Positions 5,493-38,032 of a DNA stretch of 56,030 bases are shown here, in pieces. The notes below the pieces were generated by a model, which saw nothing but the letters and a program-made list of their open reading frames with translations, was not told the DNA's origin and did not search any database. Numbering within the stretch: position 1 is the first letter of the stretch; each line of letters begins with the position of its first letter. The position numbers and the translations under genes were made by a program. The stretch comes from Deltaproteobacteria bacterium (GTDB taxonomy: Bacteria; Desulfobacterota; Dissulfuribacteria; Dissulfuribacterales; QOAL01), in the NCBI GenBank assembly GCA_024275145.1, contig JAJRZR010000049.1, positions 1 through 56,030 of the forward strand. The letters run 5' to 3'.

Positions 5493-6851
5493 ATGAGTAA
5501 CCAGGATTTTCGCATATTGGTAGTGGATGATGAGAAGTCCCTGACGACATTGTTGCTCAGGATACTGAAGAAAGAGGGGTTCCAGGTGCGTTCTGCCTCG
5601 AATGGCAAGGAGGCATTGTCAGTCGTTGAAGGCTTCTCCCCAAATTTGATCATAACCGATCTCAGGATGCCTGAGATGGGTGGACTGGAACTGTTGAAGG
5701 CCGTAAAGGCGAAACAGCCTGAAATCGACATCATTATCCTGACTGCCTATGCTACAGTGGAAAACGCAGTGGATGCAATGAAACACGGGGCATTGGATTA
5801 TCTGATCAAGCCACTGAAGGATCCAGATGAGCTTCGAATGGCCGTGGCCAAGGTGGTGGAACGTCAGTCTTTGGTGGCAACCAATACGTTGTGGAACAGC
5901 CAGTTGGCCGAGGGACTTCCCCCTGTGGACATAATTTTTGCAGGGATGGAGGATGTCTGGAATGAGATCAAGCAGGTTGCGGAAACCGATGCCACGGTGC
6001 TTTTGCAAGGGGAGAGCGGAACAGGTAAGAGCCTTGTGGCTAAGACCTTACATCATCTAAGCGGCAAGAAGGGTGCCTTCGTAGAGATTAATTGCGCGGC
6101 CATACCGGAAAATCTGATAGAATCCGAGCTGTTTGGACATGAAAGGGGGGCGTTCACCGGTGCTGTGAAGGCAAAGAGGGGTAAATTCGAATTGGCCCAG
6201 GAAGGTACGATCTTCCTTGATGAAATCGGGGAGATGCCGCTTCCAGCCCAGGCAAAGCTGTTAAGGGTTTTGCAGGAACGTTCCTTTGAGAGGGTTGGAG
6301 GTACCGTGACACTCAAGACCGATGCCAGGGTCATTGCCGCCACGAATCAGGACCTCATGGAGAGGATAAAGGAGCGAGGATTCCGGGAAGATCTGTTCTA
6401 CAGACTGAACGTGTTTCCCATCAACCTGCCACCGTTGAGGGAAAGGAAAGGCGCGCTTCCAAGGCTTGCCGGATATTTGGTCAACCATATCTCGGCCAAG
6501 GTGGGCAGGAAGATGCTTGAAATCCCGGATGACGTCCTCGCCACCCTGGAGTCTTACGATTGGCCAGGCAATGTAAGGGAACTGCACAATGTGCTGGAGC
6601 GCGCAATAATCCTTTCCAAGGGGCCTGTTGTAACCATTCCTCCCCTTGTTGAGGAACGGAAGAAGGAAAACAACCGCAACGATGGTATCAGGAAGGAAAG
6701 GAGGCTGAAACGTCTGGCAGATCTGGAACGGGAGGCTATAGAGGAAACACTTGAGCAAACCAAGGGACATAGACGCAAGGCCGCAGATATATTGGGAATT
6801 TCGCTAAGAACTTTGCAGTACAAGCTAAAAAATTACGGAATAAAGAAATAG
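5493..6851 (+). CDS. NtrC-family sigma-54 response regulator with canonical GAFTGA
   Basis: This is a 452-residue enhancer-binding protein. The receiver domain covers residues 1-125 (VVDDEKS, acceptor Asp in IITDLRMPE, Thr in LTAYAT, Lys in IKPLK). The AAA+ domain spans about 150-390 with Walker A GESGTGKS, the sigma-54 contact loop GAFTGA, Walker B TIFLDEIGE and the arginine-finger region FREDLFYRLNVFP. A Fis-like helix-turn-helix closes the protein (KAADILGISLRTLQYKLKNYG). No kinase is adjacent. A near-perfect sigma-54 promoter lies 71 bp beyond its stop and drives a predicted small RNA. That makes this protein the obvious candidate activator of that RNA, by proximity only. The Shine-Dalgarno sequence is weak. 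Confidence 0.92.
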   Translation: MSNQDFRILVVDDEKSLTTLLLRILKKEGFQVRSASNGKEALSVVEGFSPNLIITDLRMPEMGGLELLKAVKAKQPEIDIIILTAYATVENAVDAMKHGALDYLIKPLKDPDELRMAVAKVVERQSLVATNTLWNSQLAEGLPPVDIIFAGMEDVWNEIKQVAETDATVLLQGESGTGKSLVAKTLHHLSGKKGAFVEINCAAIPENLIESELFGHERGAFTGAVKAKRGKFELAQEGTIFLDEIGEMPLPAQAKLLRVLQERSFERVGGTVTLKTDARVIAATNQDLMERIKERGFREDLFYRLNVFPINLPPLRERKGALPRLAGYLVNHISAKVGRKMLEIPDDVLATLESYDWPGNVRELHNVLERAIILSKGPVVTIPPLVEERKKENNRNDGIRKERRLKRLADLEREAIEETLEQTKGHRRKAADILGISLRTLQYKLKNYGIKK

Positions 6852-6861
6852 ATCGATATTG

Positions 6862-6877
6862 TGGCACGCTGCATGCA
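6862..6877 (+). promoter_or_regulatory. weaker sigma-54 promoter-like site
   Basis: TGGCAC-N5-ATGC has the invariant GG-N10-GC spacing, with one mismatch in the -12 element. It lies 60 bp upstream of the stronger site in the same orientation. Confidence 0.4.
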
Positions 6878-6921: not shown

Positions 6922-6937
6922 TGGCACAAAGTTTGCT
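6922..6937 (+). promoter_or_regulatory. sigma-54 promoter (-24/-12)
   Basis: TGGCAC-N5-TTGCT matches the sigma-54 consensus at every conserved base, with exactly 10 nt between GG (6923-6924) and GC (6935-6936). Transcription would begin about 12 nt after the -12 C, near 6948. The only element downstream before a strong terminator is the predicted small RNA. Confidence 0.75.
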
Positions 6938-6947
6938 AAATAAAACC

Positions 6948-7037
6948 ATAAAGACACAGCAAGAAACTCCCTATCCCTCCCAACCCTCCTCTCCCCGAAG
7001 GCCTTCTTGGACCTCCTCAAGAAGGCCTTCATTTTTT
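6948..7037 (+). ncRNA. predicted sigma-54-dependent C-rich small RNA
   Basis: This is a transcript of about 90 nt predicted between the sigma-54 promoter and a strong intrinsic terminator. It has no ATG, GTG or TTG upstream of the hairpin, so it is unlikely to encode a peptide. The single-stranded 5' part is almost free of G and carries C-rich modules: CTCCC 6967-6971, CCCTCCC 6975-6981, CCCTCCT 6984-6990 and CTCCCC 6991-6996. A further CCTCC sits in the terminator loop at 7012-7016. CCUCC is complementary to Shine-Dalgarno GGAGG. A post-transcriptional repressor that blocks ribosome binding sites is therefore the leading idea, and a decoy for an RNA-binding protein is an alternative. The existence of the RNA is inferred. 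Confidence 0.6.
6997..7037 (+). terminator. intrinsic terminator of the predicted small RNA
   Basis: A perfect 13-bp stem (6997-7009 with 7018-7030) closes an 8-nt loop and is followed by six T (7032-7037). Each arm contains the 10-bp palindrome GAAGGCCTTC. Confidence 0.85.
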
Positions 7038-7808
7038 CATTTGTGTCGTAGTGTTATCCCTTTAAATGTAATTTGAGATAATCTCTTTGTTTTTACAATA
7101 AGATACGACGTATGCAGGATTGCCCTTCCTGCCGTGTCGGGTTATTTCCCATATACATATGTAAGTGGGCTTCCAGGCAGAAAATCCATTGGTAAATTCT
7201 TTTGGGAACAACAAACGGGTCTTGGGAAACCAAGGATGTAACGAGGTGCAAATTTTGCACCTGCAAAAGTGCAAATTTTGCACCTCCATGCAATTGCTGC
7301 ATAAGTTTTATATGCGTTTTTCTTCCCTTATCCTTACCGAGGCTCTGGTCTGGCCATGCCTGTGTAGATGCGTTACATGCAAGCCATGGGGCCCGGCATG
7401 AATATACGGAGCGAGGTGCAATACCCATGGTCATTGGAACTTATCATCACGCCGTCGGGCATAAAGTCTGCATATTGTCTTGGGTATGCTATCTGTCGGG
7501 AGATCGAATTGTTGTGGATACCCTGGTTGGATAGGGTGTGGTTTTTGCCCCGAAAATACTCCTACTCCTGGGTGTGGCGTCAAGGGCCGGACGGGTATAT
7601 CCCTTACGACAAATGATACAGCCTCATGTTGAAAGGCAGTTTTTTTAATGACAGGTGACCTAAGTGAAGGTATTTTTATGCTGTGCTGGTGGAAGATTTG
7701 CCAGGTAATCCCAGGTAACCATGGAAGTCCCGGATCCGGATCCCCTTGGGGTAAAAGGTTCCGTCTATCGGCTTTGTGCCCGCTGCTGCTTCTTAGGAGG
7801 TATTGATC
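7038..7808. other. gene-free stretch downstream of the small RNA
   Basis: No convincing coding frame is seen on either strand: the frames here have low-complexity translations and lack ribosome binding sites. The stretch contains the tandem palindrome at 7244-7285. A degraded match to the interspersed repeat lies around 7551-7604 (GAAAATACTCCTACTCCTGG), and a tail-like piece GGGGCCCGGCATGAATATA lies near 7387-7405. A weak sigma-54-like site (TGG at 7687, TTGC at 7698-7701, GG-N10-GC spacing kept) lies about 110 bp before the next gene. Confidence 0.5.
7244..7285. promoter_or_regulatory. tandem palindromic operator-like sites
   Basis: Two copies of the 17-mer GTGCAAATTTTGCACCT (7246-7262 and 7269-7285) lie 23 bp apart, about two helical turns. 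Each is the core of a near-perfect palindrome (AGGTGCAAA-T-TTTGCACCT for the first). Spacing and symmetry look like paired dimer-binding sites for a helix-turn-helix regulator. Which regulator binds is unknown. The NtrC-type protein upstream is a candidate. Confidence 0.5.
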
Positions 7809-8306
7809 TTGGCCCCAGACCTTGAAATGCCAACCGGGATAGCAAAAACTTCCCACTTCGGACTTTGCTTTTATCTGATTGCCATGGCGATGATCGTTGG
7901 CATATGTTCCGTAGATTTCGTAGATGCGTCTACCGGCTATGATGAAAATACCGAGATCGTGATAAAGGGCAGGGTGGTGGCGGTGAACGCCCGGTCTTTT
8001 TCAGGTCTCAACTGTTTTACACTTGAGTTCAGAAACAGGATGTTCAGGGTCATAACCGCGCCGCCATGGTTTTTGCGGAGGATTGGTTTCAGGTTGAAGC
8101 CAGGCCAGAAATTAAAGGTCAGGGGCTCTAAATTTTTTGGCAGGGATGGTGGTCTCTATATCCTGGCACGATCCTTACAGATAGTGCCAAATGGACGTAA
8201 GATCATTTTCAGGGGCAGGGATTGCAAGCCGCTCTGGCGCAATTCAGGCATAAAGGAGTCGTCTTGTATCAGAATCTTTTACTGCCCGCCTCATCCGAAT
8301 TTTTAA
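7809..8306 (+). CDS. Exported OB-fold-like protein of unknown function
   Basis: I do not recognise a named family. The 165-residue product begins at TTG 7809, chosen because AGGAGG (7795-7800) is eight bases upstream. A hydrophobic segment at about residues 18-35 (FGLCFYLIAMAMIVGIC) looks like a signal peptide or membrane anchor. The remainder is strand-rich, with the pattern IKGRVVAVNARSF ... FTLEFRN ... PPWFLRRIGFRLKPGQKLKVRGSK, which resembles a small OB-fold barrel as in periplasmic YgiW/YdeI-like proteins. Two cysteines occur near the C-terminus. It is followed 72 nt later by the 5-formyl-THF cyclo-ligase gene. Secretion is inferred from the leader; function is unknown. Confidence 0.65.
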   Translation: MAPDLEMPTGIAKTSHFGLCFYLIAMAMIVGICSVDFVDASTGYDENTEIVIKGRVVAVNARSFSGLNCFTLEFRNRMFRVITAPPWFLRRIGFRLKPGQKLKVRGSKFFGRDGGLYILARSLQIVPNGRKIIFRGRDCKPLWRNSGIKESSCIRIFYCPPHPNF

Positions 8307-18852: not shown

Positions 18853-19345
18853 TCGCTCTTTTCTTGATAAAATATTTTTTATCAGTGAGGTGAGATAGCT
18901 TGACAGGCTCTCTCTTCCTCCTTTTTGCCGGTTGTATTATCCGTGCTTCCCTGTCTTTGATTATTTCAAATAAGGCCGGTGCCCTACTTCATGTTCCGCA
19001 TCTTGTTTCTTTTACCCGCCCACTTACACTTTCTCTTGCAATTGGAACAGATGGCAGGCTGAGTAGGTCTGTTAGGGTTTTTAAGACAGCGCATATATTT
19101 TTTCTCCTTTTATTCCAAATAATTAAGATCGTTATATCGGTGTGGCCCTCTTACATAGGTATACCTAGGCATGAAAACCTTACCCAATGGCAGGATTCTA
19201 GCTCCACGATAAAGTTAAGCAAATTATATGCCATTAAGAGTAACCGGTTACGGGGTCATCGCTTTAAAAAATTCCTGCCCTGTTATTGTTGGGGAGTGAA
19301 AGACAGATGGATGGAAAAGATCGAGGCGATCTCAGGATGGTATGT
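18853..19345. other. gene-free spacer between panB and the ykgJ-like gene
   Basis: An AT-rich hairpin lies just after panB (18863-18890). A plus-strand frame of 176 codons opens here but has no recognisable domain and runs into the opposite-strand coding region. A minus-strand repeat copy occupies about 19125-19205. Confidence 0.5.
19125..19205 (-). repeat. interspersed two-hairpin repeat, copy 9 (degraded)
   Basis: Read on the minus strand it gives AGAATCCTGCCATTGGG, GGTTTTCATGCCTAGGTA and a GAGGGCCACA tail, matching the order of motifs in the family. Confidence 0.45.
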
Positions 19346-30672: not shown

Positions 30673-31419
30673 TTACAGGGTCTCAACCGGCTGTGCCCGG
30701 TGGTTTGATTGGATTATGGGCCAACTATGTTCATTCGTCCATTTGTCGGGATGTTCCGTTACTGAAGCCCATCGTTCCTCAGCCCTGAACGTGTTCCTGG
30801 AAATATTATATGTCAGGCTGTCCAGAAGGACCGTGAAGTCTACGTACTGTACGTTGACCCCGGATGGCACGACGAGCCGCGAGGAAGAAAAGTTGAGGAT
30901 GCCTTTTATGCCCGAGCTTACAAGGACATCCGCCACCTCTTGCGCCTTATCTGGCGTTACTGCTATGACAGCAAGATCCACCCTGTTTTCCTTTACAATC
31001 TGCATCAGTCTGTCAAACGGCCATATCCCTATGCCAGGATCTATTTCTTCGCCGATGTGCTTGCCATCGATATCTATAGCTGCCACAAAATTGTAGCCTT
31101 GTTGGGAGAACTGGGGATAACGTACGAGGGCCTTCCCTATTGGTCCAATGCCAACGAGTACCAGGCGCCAGTCCCTTTCGAGACCCAATATGGCCGACAC
31201 CCTGCTTGCCAGGCCTGCCACATCGTAGCCAACCCCCCTGACACCAAATCTTCCAAAATATGAAAGATCCTTTCTCAGTTGTGCTGGGTTTACGTTGGTT
31301 CGTTTCGCAAGCTCAGCGGATGAAATCATGGTCGTGCCTTCCTTGAGCAGTAGCTGAAGGTACCTGTGATAGACTGAAAGACGGAGAATAGTTGCGGCCG
31401 GAATCTTTTGTTTGTGCAA
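30673..31419 (-). CDS. rex: Redox-sensing transcriptional repressor Rex
   Basis: Rex senses the NADH/NAD+ ratio and represses fermentative or respiratory genes when NADH is low. The 248-residue protein starts at TTG 31419 (GGAGG seven bases upstream). The N-terminal winged helix contains IPAATILRLSVYHRYL and NPAQLRKDLSYFGRFGVRGVGY. The Rossmann domain has LVGIGPIGKALV. A C-terminal domain-swap helix follows (VDFTVLLDSLTYNI). About 40 extra residues follow that helix, making it longer than usual. I found no convincing Rex operator (TTGTGAA-type palindrome) in adjacent spacers. Confidence 0.94.
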   Translation of the reverse strand: MHKQKIPAATILRLSVYHRYLQLLLKEGTTMISSAELAKRTNVNPAQLRKDLSYFGRFGVRGVGYDVAGLASRVSAILGLERDWRLVLVGIGPIGKALVRYPQFSQQGYNFVAAIDIDGKHIGEEIDPGIGIWPFDRLMQIVKENRVDLAVIAVTPDKAQEVADVLVSSGIKGILNFSSSRLVVPSGVNVQYVDFTVLLDSLTYNISRNTFRAEERWASVTEHPDKWTNEHSWPIIQSNHRAQPVETL

Positions 31420-31825
31420 TTTGTTGCCTCCTGGATGTCTGTTTTGGAACCTTTTGTCGTCCCGGTTGCTGGGTGGGATTGTTGCCAACGGCATGGCCAC
31501 ATTATTAGACGCAAGAGACGTGCCGGCTCATTAATTTTTTCTCAAGCCGGTCTTTTGATAAAAAATATATTTATATTTCAGGTAATTAGAGCTAAAAAAG
31601 TATGGATTGGCAGGTGGTGATTTTGTAATGGTACAGGATGATGTTCTTTCTACGATGCGTCATTTTTGTGGCACTTCAATAAGGAATCGATACATTTAAT
31701 GATATGATTCAATACTCCAATAATATGGAACCATATGGGCCAAAAAAACAGCAGACCCTTTGATATGTAGGTATCCCCATGAGAGTAAACGAATAATCGT
31801 GCAACATTTTTGTTTCACTTTTCCC
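31420..31825. other. gene-free AT-rich spacer upstream of rex
   Basis: No gene is supported. A stem-loop GCCGGCT/AGCCGGT (about 31522-31552) followed by TCTTTTG could be a weak plus-strand terminator. The middle is AT-rich and may hold the rex promoter. Confidence 0.4.
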
Positions 31826-31993: not shown

Positions 31994-33412
31994 TTATTCC
32001 TTGGGATATCGGAAATCGACAGAGCGCAGTCCATATCTCCTCATGAGGCGTTGAAGGGCCTGCCTTTCAAGGCCGCATCTTGTTGCCGCAGCCGTTACGT
32101 TGCCGTTACAGGCCTTTAACGCCTCTGAGATGTATGTCTTTGAAAATATCGACAGGATCTCTTGTTTTGCCTCCTTGTAAGACAGGTGGGACATGCTTGG
32201 GATAAGCCGGCAATTATTGTCATCGGTATGCTTTGAAGGGATATCCCTTGGAAAGATGGTGGAGCCGGTTGTCAGCAGAACACTCCTTTTAATGACATTC
32301 TGCAATTCCCTTACGTTCCCCTTCCATTGCCTGTTTATAAGGTGGCTCAAGGTTTCCTTGGCAAAAGACATCCTTTCCCGCCCGTACTCCGCCGCATACA
32401 GATTGAGGAAATGCTGGGCTATCAGTGGAATATCCTCTGGTATCTCCCTGAGGGCTGGCATCTCGATGGTGACGACGTTCAGTCTGTAAAAGAGGTCTTC
32501 CCGAAAGAGGCCCTTTTCAATCTTCGTCTCTAAATCCTGATTGGTGGACGCTATCACGCGCACATCTATTTTTATACTTTGGTTCTGGCCAAGGGGCCGG
32601 ATTTCCTTTTCCTGTAAAACCCGCAGGAGCTTTGTTTGGACCGAAATGGGGATGTCCGCGATCTCGTCTAGAAGTATCGTAGACCCGTTTGCCGCCAGAA
32701 AGAGGCCTTGCTTGTTCCTGGTTGCCCCGGTGAAGGCCCCCTTCATATAACCAAAAAGCTCACTTTCAAGTATTTGTTCAGGGAGCGCCGGGCAGTTGAC
32801 GGTTATCATGCGGTGCGGGGCCCGGCTGCTCATGGCATGTAGTGCCTGAGCAGCAAGCTCCTTTCCAGTGCCGCTTTCACCCCGTATCAGTACGGTGACA
32901 TCTGTGTCCGCCACCCTGGAGATCAGGTCAAGTGCCTGTGCCAATTTTTCTGACTTTCCTATCAGGCCATGGAATTCACCATGGTTTTTCAGTTTTTGAT
33001 GAAGCCTTTGGTTTTCCCTAAGGAGCCTGGTCCTCTCCAGGCAGTGCGAGACTGCGTGTGTGATTTTTTTGATTTCGAAAGGCTTTTCAAAGAAGTCATA
33101 CGCCCCGTCCTTGAGTGCCCTGACCGCGAATTCTATCGTGGCATAACCGGTCATGATGATTACGGATATCGTTGGATCGAACTCCTTGACCTCTTTGAGA
33201 AGTGTGAGCCCGTCGATATCAGGCATCTTTATGTCGGTGAGGACCACGTCGGGGTGCCAGTCCTTCAATATGCTCAGTGCCTTTCTGCCAGAAGGGGCGG
33301 TCATGATGTTGCAACCACACCTACGTGAAATCACACGCTCAAGCATAGTCAACATCTCTTCTTTATCGTCTACTATCAAGAGCTTCTGTGATGTGGCAGG
33401 GTATAGCGGCAT
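31994..33412 (-). CDS. NtrC-family sigma-54 response regulator with canonical GAFTGA
   Basis: This 472-residue enhancer-binding protein has a receiver (IVDDKEE, acceptor Asp in VLTDIKMPD, Lys in FEKPFE), an AAA+ domain (GESGTGKE, GAFTGA, STILLDEIAD, the FREDLFYRLNVV region) and a Fis-like helix-turn-helix near the C-terminus (GNVTAAATRCGLERQALQRL). ATG 33412 is preferred over an in-frame TTG at 33448 because it gives the usual short N-terminus before the receiver. No kinase gene is adjacent. The upstream spacer is filled with repeat copies. Confidence 0.9.
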   Translation of the reverse strand: MPLYPATSQKLLIVDDKEEMLTMLERVISRRCGCNIMTAPSGRKALSILKDWHPDVVLTDIKMPDIDGLTLLKEVKEFDPTISVIIMTGYATIEFAVRALKDGAYDFFEKPFEIKKITHAVSHCLERTRLLRENQRLHQKLKNHGEFHGLIGKSEKLAQALDLISRVADTDVTVLIRGESGTGKELAAQALHAMSSRAPHRMITVNCPALPEQILESELFGYMKGAFTGATRNKQGLFLAANGSTILLDEIADIPISVQTKLLRVLQEKEIRPLGQNQSIKIDVRVIASTNQDLETKIEKGLFREDLFYRLNVVTIEMPALREIPEDIPLIAQHFLNLYAAEYGRERMSFAKETLSHLINRQWKGNVRELQNVIKRSVLLTTGSTIFPRDIPSKHTDDNNCRLIPSMSHLSYKEAKQEILSIFSKTYISEALKACNGNVTAAATRCGLERQALQRLMRRYGLRSVDFRYPKE

Positions 33413-33449
33413 AATCCAGACGTCTGATGGTCTCCGAAGGGCAGGCAAG

Positions 33450-36724: not shown

Positions 36725-38032
36725 ATGTCGTCTTCAGATAGGTCAGGCCCGATGCCTTCCAGCATTCTTATAGTTGAAGATAATAGAAAGCTGTCAGGAA
36801 TTTTCAAAGAGGCACTTTCGGAATATTTCGAGGTCGGGCAGGCATATAGCCTTCGTCAAGCAAGGACCATGTTGAAGGATTTTGATGGTTGTCTCCTGGA
36901 CCTTCAGTTGCCCGACGGTGAAGGGCTGGAGCTGATAGGGCCTTTCAAGAGGGCAAGGCCCTTATCTGTGATAATCGTGGTAACTGCCTACGGCACGGTT
37001 AGCAAGGCAGTAGAGGCGATAAAATCCGGGGCCACGGATTTCCTGGAAAAACCCGTGGATCTCGAACAACTCGTTGGGCGCTTCAGGGATCTCATGGCCG
37101 TGCAAAGGGGTGATGACATGGTGGCAGAGTCCAGCCTGATGCGGGAGACGTTGACAATGGCGGAAAGGGTGGCCCCAACCGCATTTCCAGTGCTCATCAC
37201 CGGGGAGACCGGCACGGGCAAGGAGGTCCTGGCGAGGTATATACATAAGCGTAGCGGGAGGGAGAGGTTCATCAGCCTGAATTGTGCCAACCTTCCATCC
37301 GAGATCGCCGATTCCATGTTGTTCGGGCATCTAAAGGGCAGTTTCACCGGGGCCAGCGAATGCCGGCAGGGCCTTGTGGAGGCGGCAGATGAAGGTACCC
37401 TGTTCCTAGACGAAATTGGTGATCTTCCCATGTCATTACAGCCCAAGATACTTCGTTTTCTGGATTCAGGGGCCTATTTACCAATCGGTGGCACCAGGGA
37501 GGCACACAGCAGTGCAAGGATACTGGCAGCAACCAACAAGGATCTAAAAAAGGAGGTGAGCGAGGGAAGGTTTCGCGAGGATCTATATTTCCGGCTATCC
37601 GCCTTCCCGATACGTGTACCTCCATTGAGAAAGAGGAGAGAAGACATCCTGCCCCTTGCAAGGTTGCACCTGGCAAGGCTTGGAAGGCAGATCGAAAGGG
37701 ATGTGGATATCTGTGAAGATGCCCTGGCCATACTCCAGTCATGTAACCTTCCAGGTAATGTCCGTGAACTTTTTAATTTGCTGGACCGGGCGTTTCTGTT
37801 GTGCAACGGATCGATAACATCCAGGGATATTTCAGGGCTTTTGGATGGTGGTGTGCGGGACGATTCATCCAATGATTTTTGGAGCCAGACCAGGGCCAGT
37901 GCTATCGAAAAGGAAAGGGAGCTGATAGCGAAAGCCCTGGCGGAGGCAGGTGGGAACAAGGCAAAGGCCGCAAGGATCTTAGGGGTGAGTTATAAGACGC
38001 TTCTTAAGAAGATGAAAAGATTGGATATTTGA
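36725..38032 (+). CDS. NtrC-family sigma-54 response regulator with GSFTGA loop
   Basis: This 435-residue enhancer-binding protein has a receiver (IVEDNRK, acceptor Asp in CLLDLQLPD, Lys in LEKPVD), AAA+ domain (GETGTGKE, Walker B TLFLDEIGD, FREDLYFRLSAFP) and C-terminal Fis-type helix-turn-helix (GGNKAKAARILGVSYKTLLKKM). The sigma-54 contact loop is GSFTGA rather than GAFTGA. No histidine kinase is adjacent. It is divergent from ppx and followed by a hairpin, then by repeats before the tatA-resB-ccsA genes. Confidence 0.9.
   Translation: MSSSDRSGPMPSSILIVEDNRKLSGIFKEALSEYFEVGQAYSLRQARTMLKDFDGCLLDLQLPDGEGLELIGPFKRARPLSVIIVVTAYGTVSKAVEAIKSGATDFLEKPVDLEQLVGRFRDLMAVQRGDDMVAESSLMRETLTMAERVAPTAFPVLITGETGTGKEVLARYIHKRSGRERFISLNCANLPSEIADSMLFGHLKGSFTGASECRQGLVEAADEGTLFLDEIGDLPMSLQPKILRFLDSGAYLPIGGTREAHSSARILAATNKDLKKEVSEGRFREDLYFRLSAFPIRVPPLRKRREDILPLARLHLARLGRQIERDVDICEDALAILQSCNLPGNVRELFNLLDRAFLLCNGSITSRDISGLLDGGVRDDSSNDFWSQTRASAIEKERELIAKALAEAGGNKAKAARILGVSYKTLLKKMKRLDI

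Follow-up and report, generated by a model that had tools for sequence, protein, structure and literature searches.

The question raised by this locus was whether the short interval behind an NtrC-type response regulator gene, in the 56,030-nucleotide stretch of DNA that we analysed (the window), encodes a small RNA and, if so, which messages such an RNA might control. A sequence-only reading of the window had proposed that a sigma-54 promoter at this position drives a short C-rich RNA, and that an orphan regulator uses this RNA to silence a regulon of mRNAs by pairing with their Shine-Dalgarno regions.

Promoter, core and terminator beside a regulator gene

The regulator gene (5493–6851, + strand) was found by Pfam to encode a receiver domain, a sigma-54 activation domain that keeps the GAFTGA motif, as had been claimed, and an HTH_8 domain (Fis-type HTH); against this protein all NCBIfam subfamily models scored under their cut-offs. 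Counted at ≥55% identity in the 46 genomes available for the order Dissulfuribacterales, orthologs of the regulator were present in 42 (55–94% identity). An sRNA controlled by sigma-54 and a bEBP is in general expected to adjoin the gene of its own GAFTGA-containing bEBP, as is the case here, and the gene at 5493–6851 is probably the activator of the adjoining sRNA. Starting 70 nt past the stop codon of this ORF we saw the main promoter, P2 (TGGCACAAAGTTTGCT, 6922–6937, + strand), a perfect −24/−12 match that has the exact GG-N10-GC spacing noted in the sequence-only reading and is the sole zero-mismatch sigma-54 site in the 56-kb window. That reading had missed an upstream promoter-like site, P1 (TGGCACGCTGCATGCA, 6862–6877, + strand), which has one mismatch to the consensus and sits 60 bp upstream of P2. 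A tandem sigma-54 site 52–65 bp upstream of P2 was found for 18 of 48 sRNA copies, and a sigma-54 promoter was present in all 48, with GG and GC invariant and the spacer bases variable.

With the 5' end inferred from P2 and the 3' end from the T-run, the small RNA is predicted to be ~90 nt long (6948–7037, + strand). It ends in an intrinsic terminator (6997–7037, + strand) composed of a 14-bp stem (6997–7030), a loop that includes CCTCC (7012–7016) and a run of six T; the stem-loop had a folding z of −4.3, and its stem showed compensatory changes in 6 of 10 consensus pairs, a result that none of 500 shuffles equalled. From 6948 up to the hairpin no ATG, GTG or TTG occurs, and the 49 nt that precede the hairpin comprise 23 C and 3 G, in agreement with the earlier description of a nearly G-free transcript with no start codon ahead of its terminator. 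The RNA is thus laid out as an unpaired C-rich 5' region followed by one hairpin, and the 5' region holds the core AACCCTCCTCTCC (in RNA, AACCCUCCUCUCC; 6982–6994, + strand), which we presume to be the seed. No copy in alignment A1 departs from this core; its 13 nt were invariant across 24 diverse copies, even where the terminator sequence was unrelated (L039). The conserved unit is therefore AACCCTCCTCTCC, which extends beyond CCTCC and had been overlooked; the three CCTCC modules emphasized in the sequence-only reading do lie where it placed them, but since the loop CCTCC is missing in the large family f2, it is not the set of three that is conserved. We also considered whether the C-rich DNA acts as a G-quadruplex or i-motif, and do not favour this, as f2 loses the extended motif and retains the core.

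Distribution of the locus and its downstream palindromes

Searches with our covariance model R1 gave strong matches in 41 of the 46 order genomes, and the unit of promoter, core and hairpin was likewise found in about 41 of them, which argues that the locus is not due to chance; judged by this comparison of sequences, it is a genuine gene. Both the regulator and the RNA were present in 40 of the 46 genomes and neither in three (G004, G025 and G037), while two had the regulator without the RNA (G011 and G034) and one the RNA without the regulator (G032), all three of these near contig ends; most genomes without the full pair involve contig ends or incomplete assemblies. The co-occurrence of regulator and RNA had a Fisher p of 0.0025, calculated with shared ancestry ignored. 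Related genomes that keep the regulator and lose promoter, core and terminator would have spoken against the proposal, and when we sought them we found that almost all keep everything, with exceptions at contig ends. Downstream of the regulator orthologs, nearly all of the sequences read contained the unit, made up of one or two sigma-54 promoters, a C-rich stretch and a terminator. The earlier idea of a non-coding RNA that sigma-54 polymerase transcribes and that is linked to this regulator is thus supported. Copies of the sRNA were in tandem in four genomes (three copies in G023, two each in G002, G005 and G033), inverted beside the regulator in G024, and relocated in G036 and in the case of a third G024 copy; duplicated, inverted or relocated, the copies always retained their own promoter.

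When the covariance model was run on a phylum-wide sample of 395 genomes, strong matches occurred only inside the order; the matches outside it were mostly bare hairpins, with C-rich stretches in three (L084, L090 and L095). At L084 (G097:C4:545514-545585) we observed a sigma-54 site, TGGCAAGGGCTTTGCT, a C-rich RNA and a terminator, the unit being flanked by genes for a sigma-54 activator and a histidine kinase; this sole similar-looking unit outside the order is possibly a distant or a convergent relative. In 84,980 named species genomes the combination of core, promoter and hairpin was confined to MAGs labelled as deltaproteobacterial or as related sulfate reducers, one of them labelled SeepSRB2, and most other core matches in that scan had neither promoter nor hairpin. 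The published taxonomy of the SeepSRB2 MAG JAJSZR places it in the order Dissulfuribacterales (PMC10553843). A phylum-wide pattern search for a sigma-54 site plus CCCTCCTC was run with a spacing of N8 where N7 is proper, and it is void as a test of distribution.

Also missed by the sequence-only reading were three palindromes of the form TGCA-N5-TGCA downstream of the RNA: TGCAAATTTTGCA at 7247–7259, the same sequence at 7270–7282 (23 bp from the first), and TGCAATTGCTGCA at 7289–7301. In this genome paired palindromes occurred only at the sRNA locus, besides one GC-rich match elsewhere. Across the order there were usually two or three, with a spacing of ~22 bp, 60–590 bp (mostly 150–370 bp) downstream of the core, and in 158 kb of locus DNA 82 of 84 matches fell within 0–600 bp downstream of the core. 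For the relocated sRNA copies (G036 and one in G024) the palindromes were upstream of the sRNA promoter. A comparable arrangement was seen outside the order at L043 (G054:C30), where a relative of the regulator (49% identity) adjoins a histidine kinase and two palindromes 22 bp apart are followed by the sigma-54 promoter of a gene for a small secreted protein. In light of this relative the regulator, which had been called an orphan, has not been without a kinase neighbour across its evolutionary range, and the L043 kinase offers a clue to the type of kinase missing for the sRNA-linked regulator. From these patterns we infer that the palindromes are enhancer sites of the regulator and act mostly from downstream, so that activation from an enhancer lying beyond the RNA gene is a possible mode of control; with presumed activator sites conserved downstream of a transcription unit, the locus lends itself to testing whether sigma-54 promoters can be activated from behind.

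nuoA as a candidate target

The complement of the core is GGAGAGGAGGGTT, and we surveyed possible targets by pattern and protein searches that were not exhaustive. The pattern GAGAGGAGG-N3-9-ATG occurred at three sites in this genome, ahead of gpmI, nuoA and a trehalose-synthase-like gene. Among 19 genomes of the family there were ~64 matches of GAGAGGAGG ahead of an ATG, and nuoA had one in ~15 of the 19; the nuoA match recurred in most f1 and f2 genomes and also in G020, whereas among the matches examined recurrence of any other gene was limited to two genera at most. The gpmI site recurred in the sister genome only, and gpmI and the trehalose-synthase-like gene are further target candidates in this genome. 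With one order member that was present in both lists set aside, GAGAGGAGG, an exact complement of the core, was found in 25 of 42 nuoA leaders in the order and in none of 27 outside it, counts in which the genomes share ancestry. Matches to the sRNA core over at least 9 nt were found in 27 of the 42 nuoA leaders, compared with a match of that length to the canonical 16S tail in 1 of 42, and with 8 of 201 other leaders, those listed being the OB-fold neighbour gene in genera g3/g4. This neighbour (7803–8306, + strand) encodes a small protein with an apparent signal peptide and a weak OB-fold match and is syntenic in the order (L001–L042); its leader is complementary to the core in g3/g4, where it carries GGGAGAGGA, a 9-nt complement, and not in this genome.

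Pairing energies were less discriminating. The 16S tail that we used was the canonical bacterial sequence, which may differ from this genome's own, and nuoA leaders paired well with it (median −16 kcal/mol); relative to control loci chosen without use of the motif, the sRNA-minus-16S energy difference of nuoA leaders was not extreme. In several families that bear the RNA (G021, G023, G028, G031 and G033) nuoA had no 9-nt match, and in G004 the nuoA motif is kept and neither RNA nor regulator was detected. A strong nuoA Shine-Dalgarno sequence could be conserved for translation alone. The nuoA leaders do hold, as a matter of complementarity, the conserved complement at the ribosome-binding site that a target of an anti-Shine-Dalgarno RNA should have, and because this complement is exact for an invariant core, they lend support to Shine-Dalgarno pairing. 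The earlier proposal of an anti-Shine-Dalgarno regulon thus survives in its pairing, as a prediction, and finds no support in its breadth; nuoA appears to be the best target candidate, and other targets are likely.

Taking these observations together, we consider it fairly probable that the locus represents a two-component, sigma-54 and anti-Shine-Dalgarno sRNA system acting partly on complex I. A kinase would phosphorylate the response regulator, which would then bind the TGCA-N5-TGCA sites that lie beyond the RNA gene and, through looping of the DNA, activate sigma-54 polymerase at P2 and perhaps also at P1. Transcription would yield the 90-nt RNA ending at the intrinsic terminator, and its unpaired core AACCCUCCUCUCC would pair with GGAGAGGAGGG-like Shine-Dalgarno regions and block ribosome loading. 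As nuoA is the first gene of the complex I operon, its repression upon activation of the regulator would be expected to lower complex I synthesis. Such target logic has a precedent in E. coli, where RyhB represses nuoA by pairing at the ribosome-binding site and lowers complex I (PMC6497325); RyhB is itself an unrelated RNA under iron-dependent control. In SeepSRB2, partners of methane-oxidising archaea, NADH for carbon fixation is inferred to come via complex I (PMC10553843). That the whole order, SeepSRB2 included, throttles complex I through one regulator and a nearly invariant anti-Shine-Dalgarno RNA activated by a downstream enhancer is a wider claim that we put forward tentatively, with more doubt than confidence. 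If nuoA is the target, an environmental signal would be linked to the control of complex I. The order consists of sulfate reducers and sulfur disproportionators that are difficult to grow in culture, and in such bacteria a regulatory RNA that is strongly conserved and has a concrete target would offer an uncommon point of access.

Across the order, an inverted repeat resembling TGAAT-N4-ATTCA recurs upstream of many nuoA genes (L175–L216) and may be an operator. The window also contains, at 30673–31500, a gene that was recognized by eye as that of a Rex-like repressor.

Alternative explanations and known relatives

That there is no gene at all, and that a chance promoter match happens to stand beside the terminator of the regulator transcript, gains some plausibility from one-mismatch sigma-54-like sites being expected by chance about twice per window; it is already contradicted by promoter, core and covarying hairpin being conserved throughout the order and by the duplication in tandem and relocation of these as a unit, and we regard it as scarcely credible. 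We also thought it very unlikely that the stretch serves the downstream OB-fold gene as its leader or attenuator, with the palindromes as operators of that gene. Synteny of the OB-fold gene, and the usual position of the palindromes in the interval from the RNA to this gene, mean that they might serve it; however, RNA and gene are separated by a strong terminator and 300–930 nt, most genomes have no sigma-54 promoter ahead of the gene, and in G036 RNA and gene are divergently oriented. In addition, no OB-fold gene lies near the RNA pair of G024, which does have palindromes, and in G023 a third RNA copy is inserted between the last palindromes and the OB-fold gene, arrangements that argue against this gene being the palindromes' only client.

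Two further explanations accept a real RNA and differ in how it would act, and we judge both to be unlikely, though less so than the preceding two. In one, the sigma-54-driven RNA titrates a protein that binds C- or pyrimidine-rich single strands (cold-shock, KH-type or Rho) and does not pair with mRNA, which would suit the very C-rich and G-poor single strand of ~45 nt ahead of the hairpin; yet 13 invariant letters exceed what a degenerate protein site needs, and the exact complement in nuoA leaders is far above background. In the other, the RNA acts as a decoy of the 16S 3' tail and silences Shine-Dalgarno regions generally; it would have no specific target, and nuoA would be incidental. CCUCC does resemble the 16S anti-Shine-Dalgarno sequence, and many hairpin loops among the copies contain an exact ACCUCCU, but the invariant core reaches CUCUCC, which pairs with GGAGAGG and not with the GGAAAGG of canonical sites, and nuoA carries GAGAGGAGG even though GAAAGGAGG is several times commoner, both in the family and genome-wide. 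Specific pairing of the core with nuoA and other leaders remains the reading that we prefer.

A search of Rfam 15 found no family match at or above the gathering threshold at the locus, the weak sub-threshold matches including FsrA (14.6 bits, where the threshold is 80), and the literature contained no description of this RNA that we could find. The sRNA would represent a new family of RNAs that Rfam does not contain, its architecture having precedents in Dv_sRNA2, Pxr and NfeR1; the RNA itself is, as the sequence-only reading had supposed, undescribed as far as we found, while neighbouring regulator and sRNA genes were already known in Desulfovibrio and Myxococcus. In Desulfovibrio vulgaris the mapped target of the sigma-54-dependent regulator DVU0679 is Dv_sRNA2, directly downstream of the regulator's own gene, and an ncRNA downstream of DVU0653 was predicted in a similar arrangement (PMC3333781, PMC4641369). 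Dv_sRNA2 and DVU0679 belong to the same phylum as our locus and share with it a sigma-54-dependent regulator with an sRNA immediately downstream; the likeness to our family is one of gene arrangement, and in the genome collection scanned the core accompanied by promoter and hairpin was not seen outside the order. In Myxococcus xanthus the Pxr sRNA lies downstream of nla19 (PMC5568312, PMC11928866). There too regulator gene, sigma-54 promoter and sRNA follow in order, with paralogs in some genera, but Pxr has three stem-loops and controls development, in contrast to the one stem-loop and C-rich single strand of the RNA described here.

The closest parallel for the seed is NfeR1/alpha-r14 (cuckoo) of rhizobia, which has ultraconserved anti-Shine-Dalgarno seeds (PMC10746234). 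As we propose for our RNA, an ultraconserved CCUCC-type seed occludes ribosome-binding sites there while the stems vary; alpha-r14, however, has CCUCCUCCC in each of three hairpins, whereas the RNA here has AACCCUCCUCUCC in an unpaired 5' region and a single hairpin, and NfeR1, which LsrB activates and NtrC represses, is not transcribed from a sigma-54 promoter under a neighbouring regulator. The Qrr RNAs of Vibrio are trans-acting sRNAs in multiple copies that are driven by LuxO (NtrC-type) with sigma-54 and need Hfq. They are different RNAs with a different structure, and the locus has no Rfam match.

Elsewhere in the window NtrC-type sigma-54 activators are unusually dense, with at least four in 56 kb: 1304–2731 (− strand), 5493–6851 (+ strand), 31994–33448 (− strand) and 36725–38032 (+ strand). 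We also noted a sigma-54-like site, TGGCATATAATTTGCT, at 19233–19218 (− strand), followed by a Shine-Dalgarno sequence and a 36-codon ORF, MRCLKNPNRPTQPAICSNCKRKCKWAGKRNKMRNMK, at ~19093–18985 (− strand), which is a candidate for a sigma-54-driven small protein.
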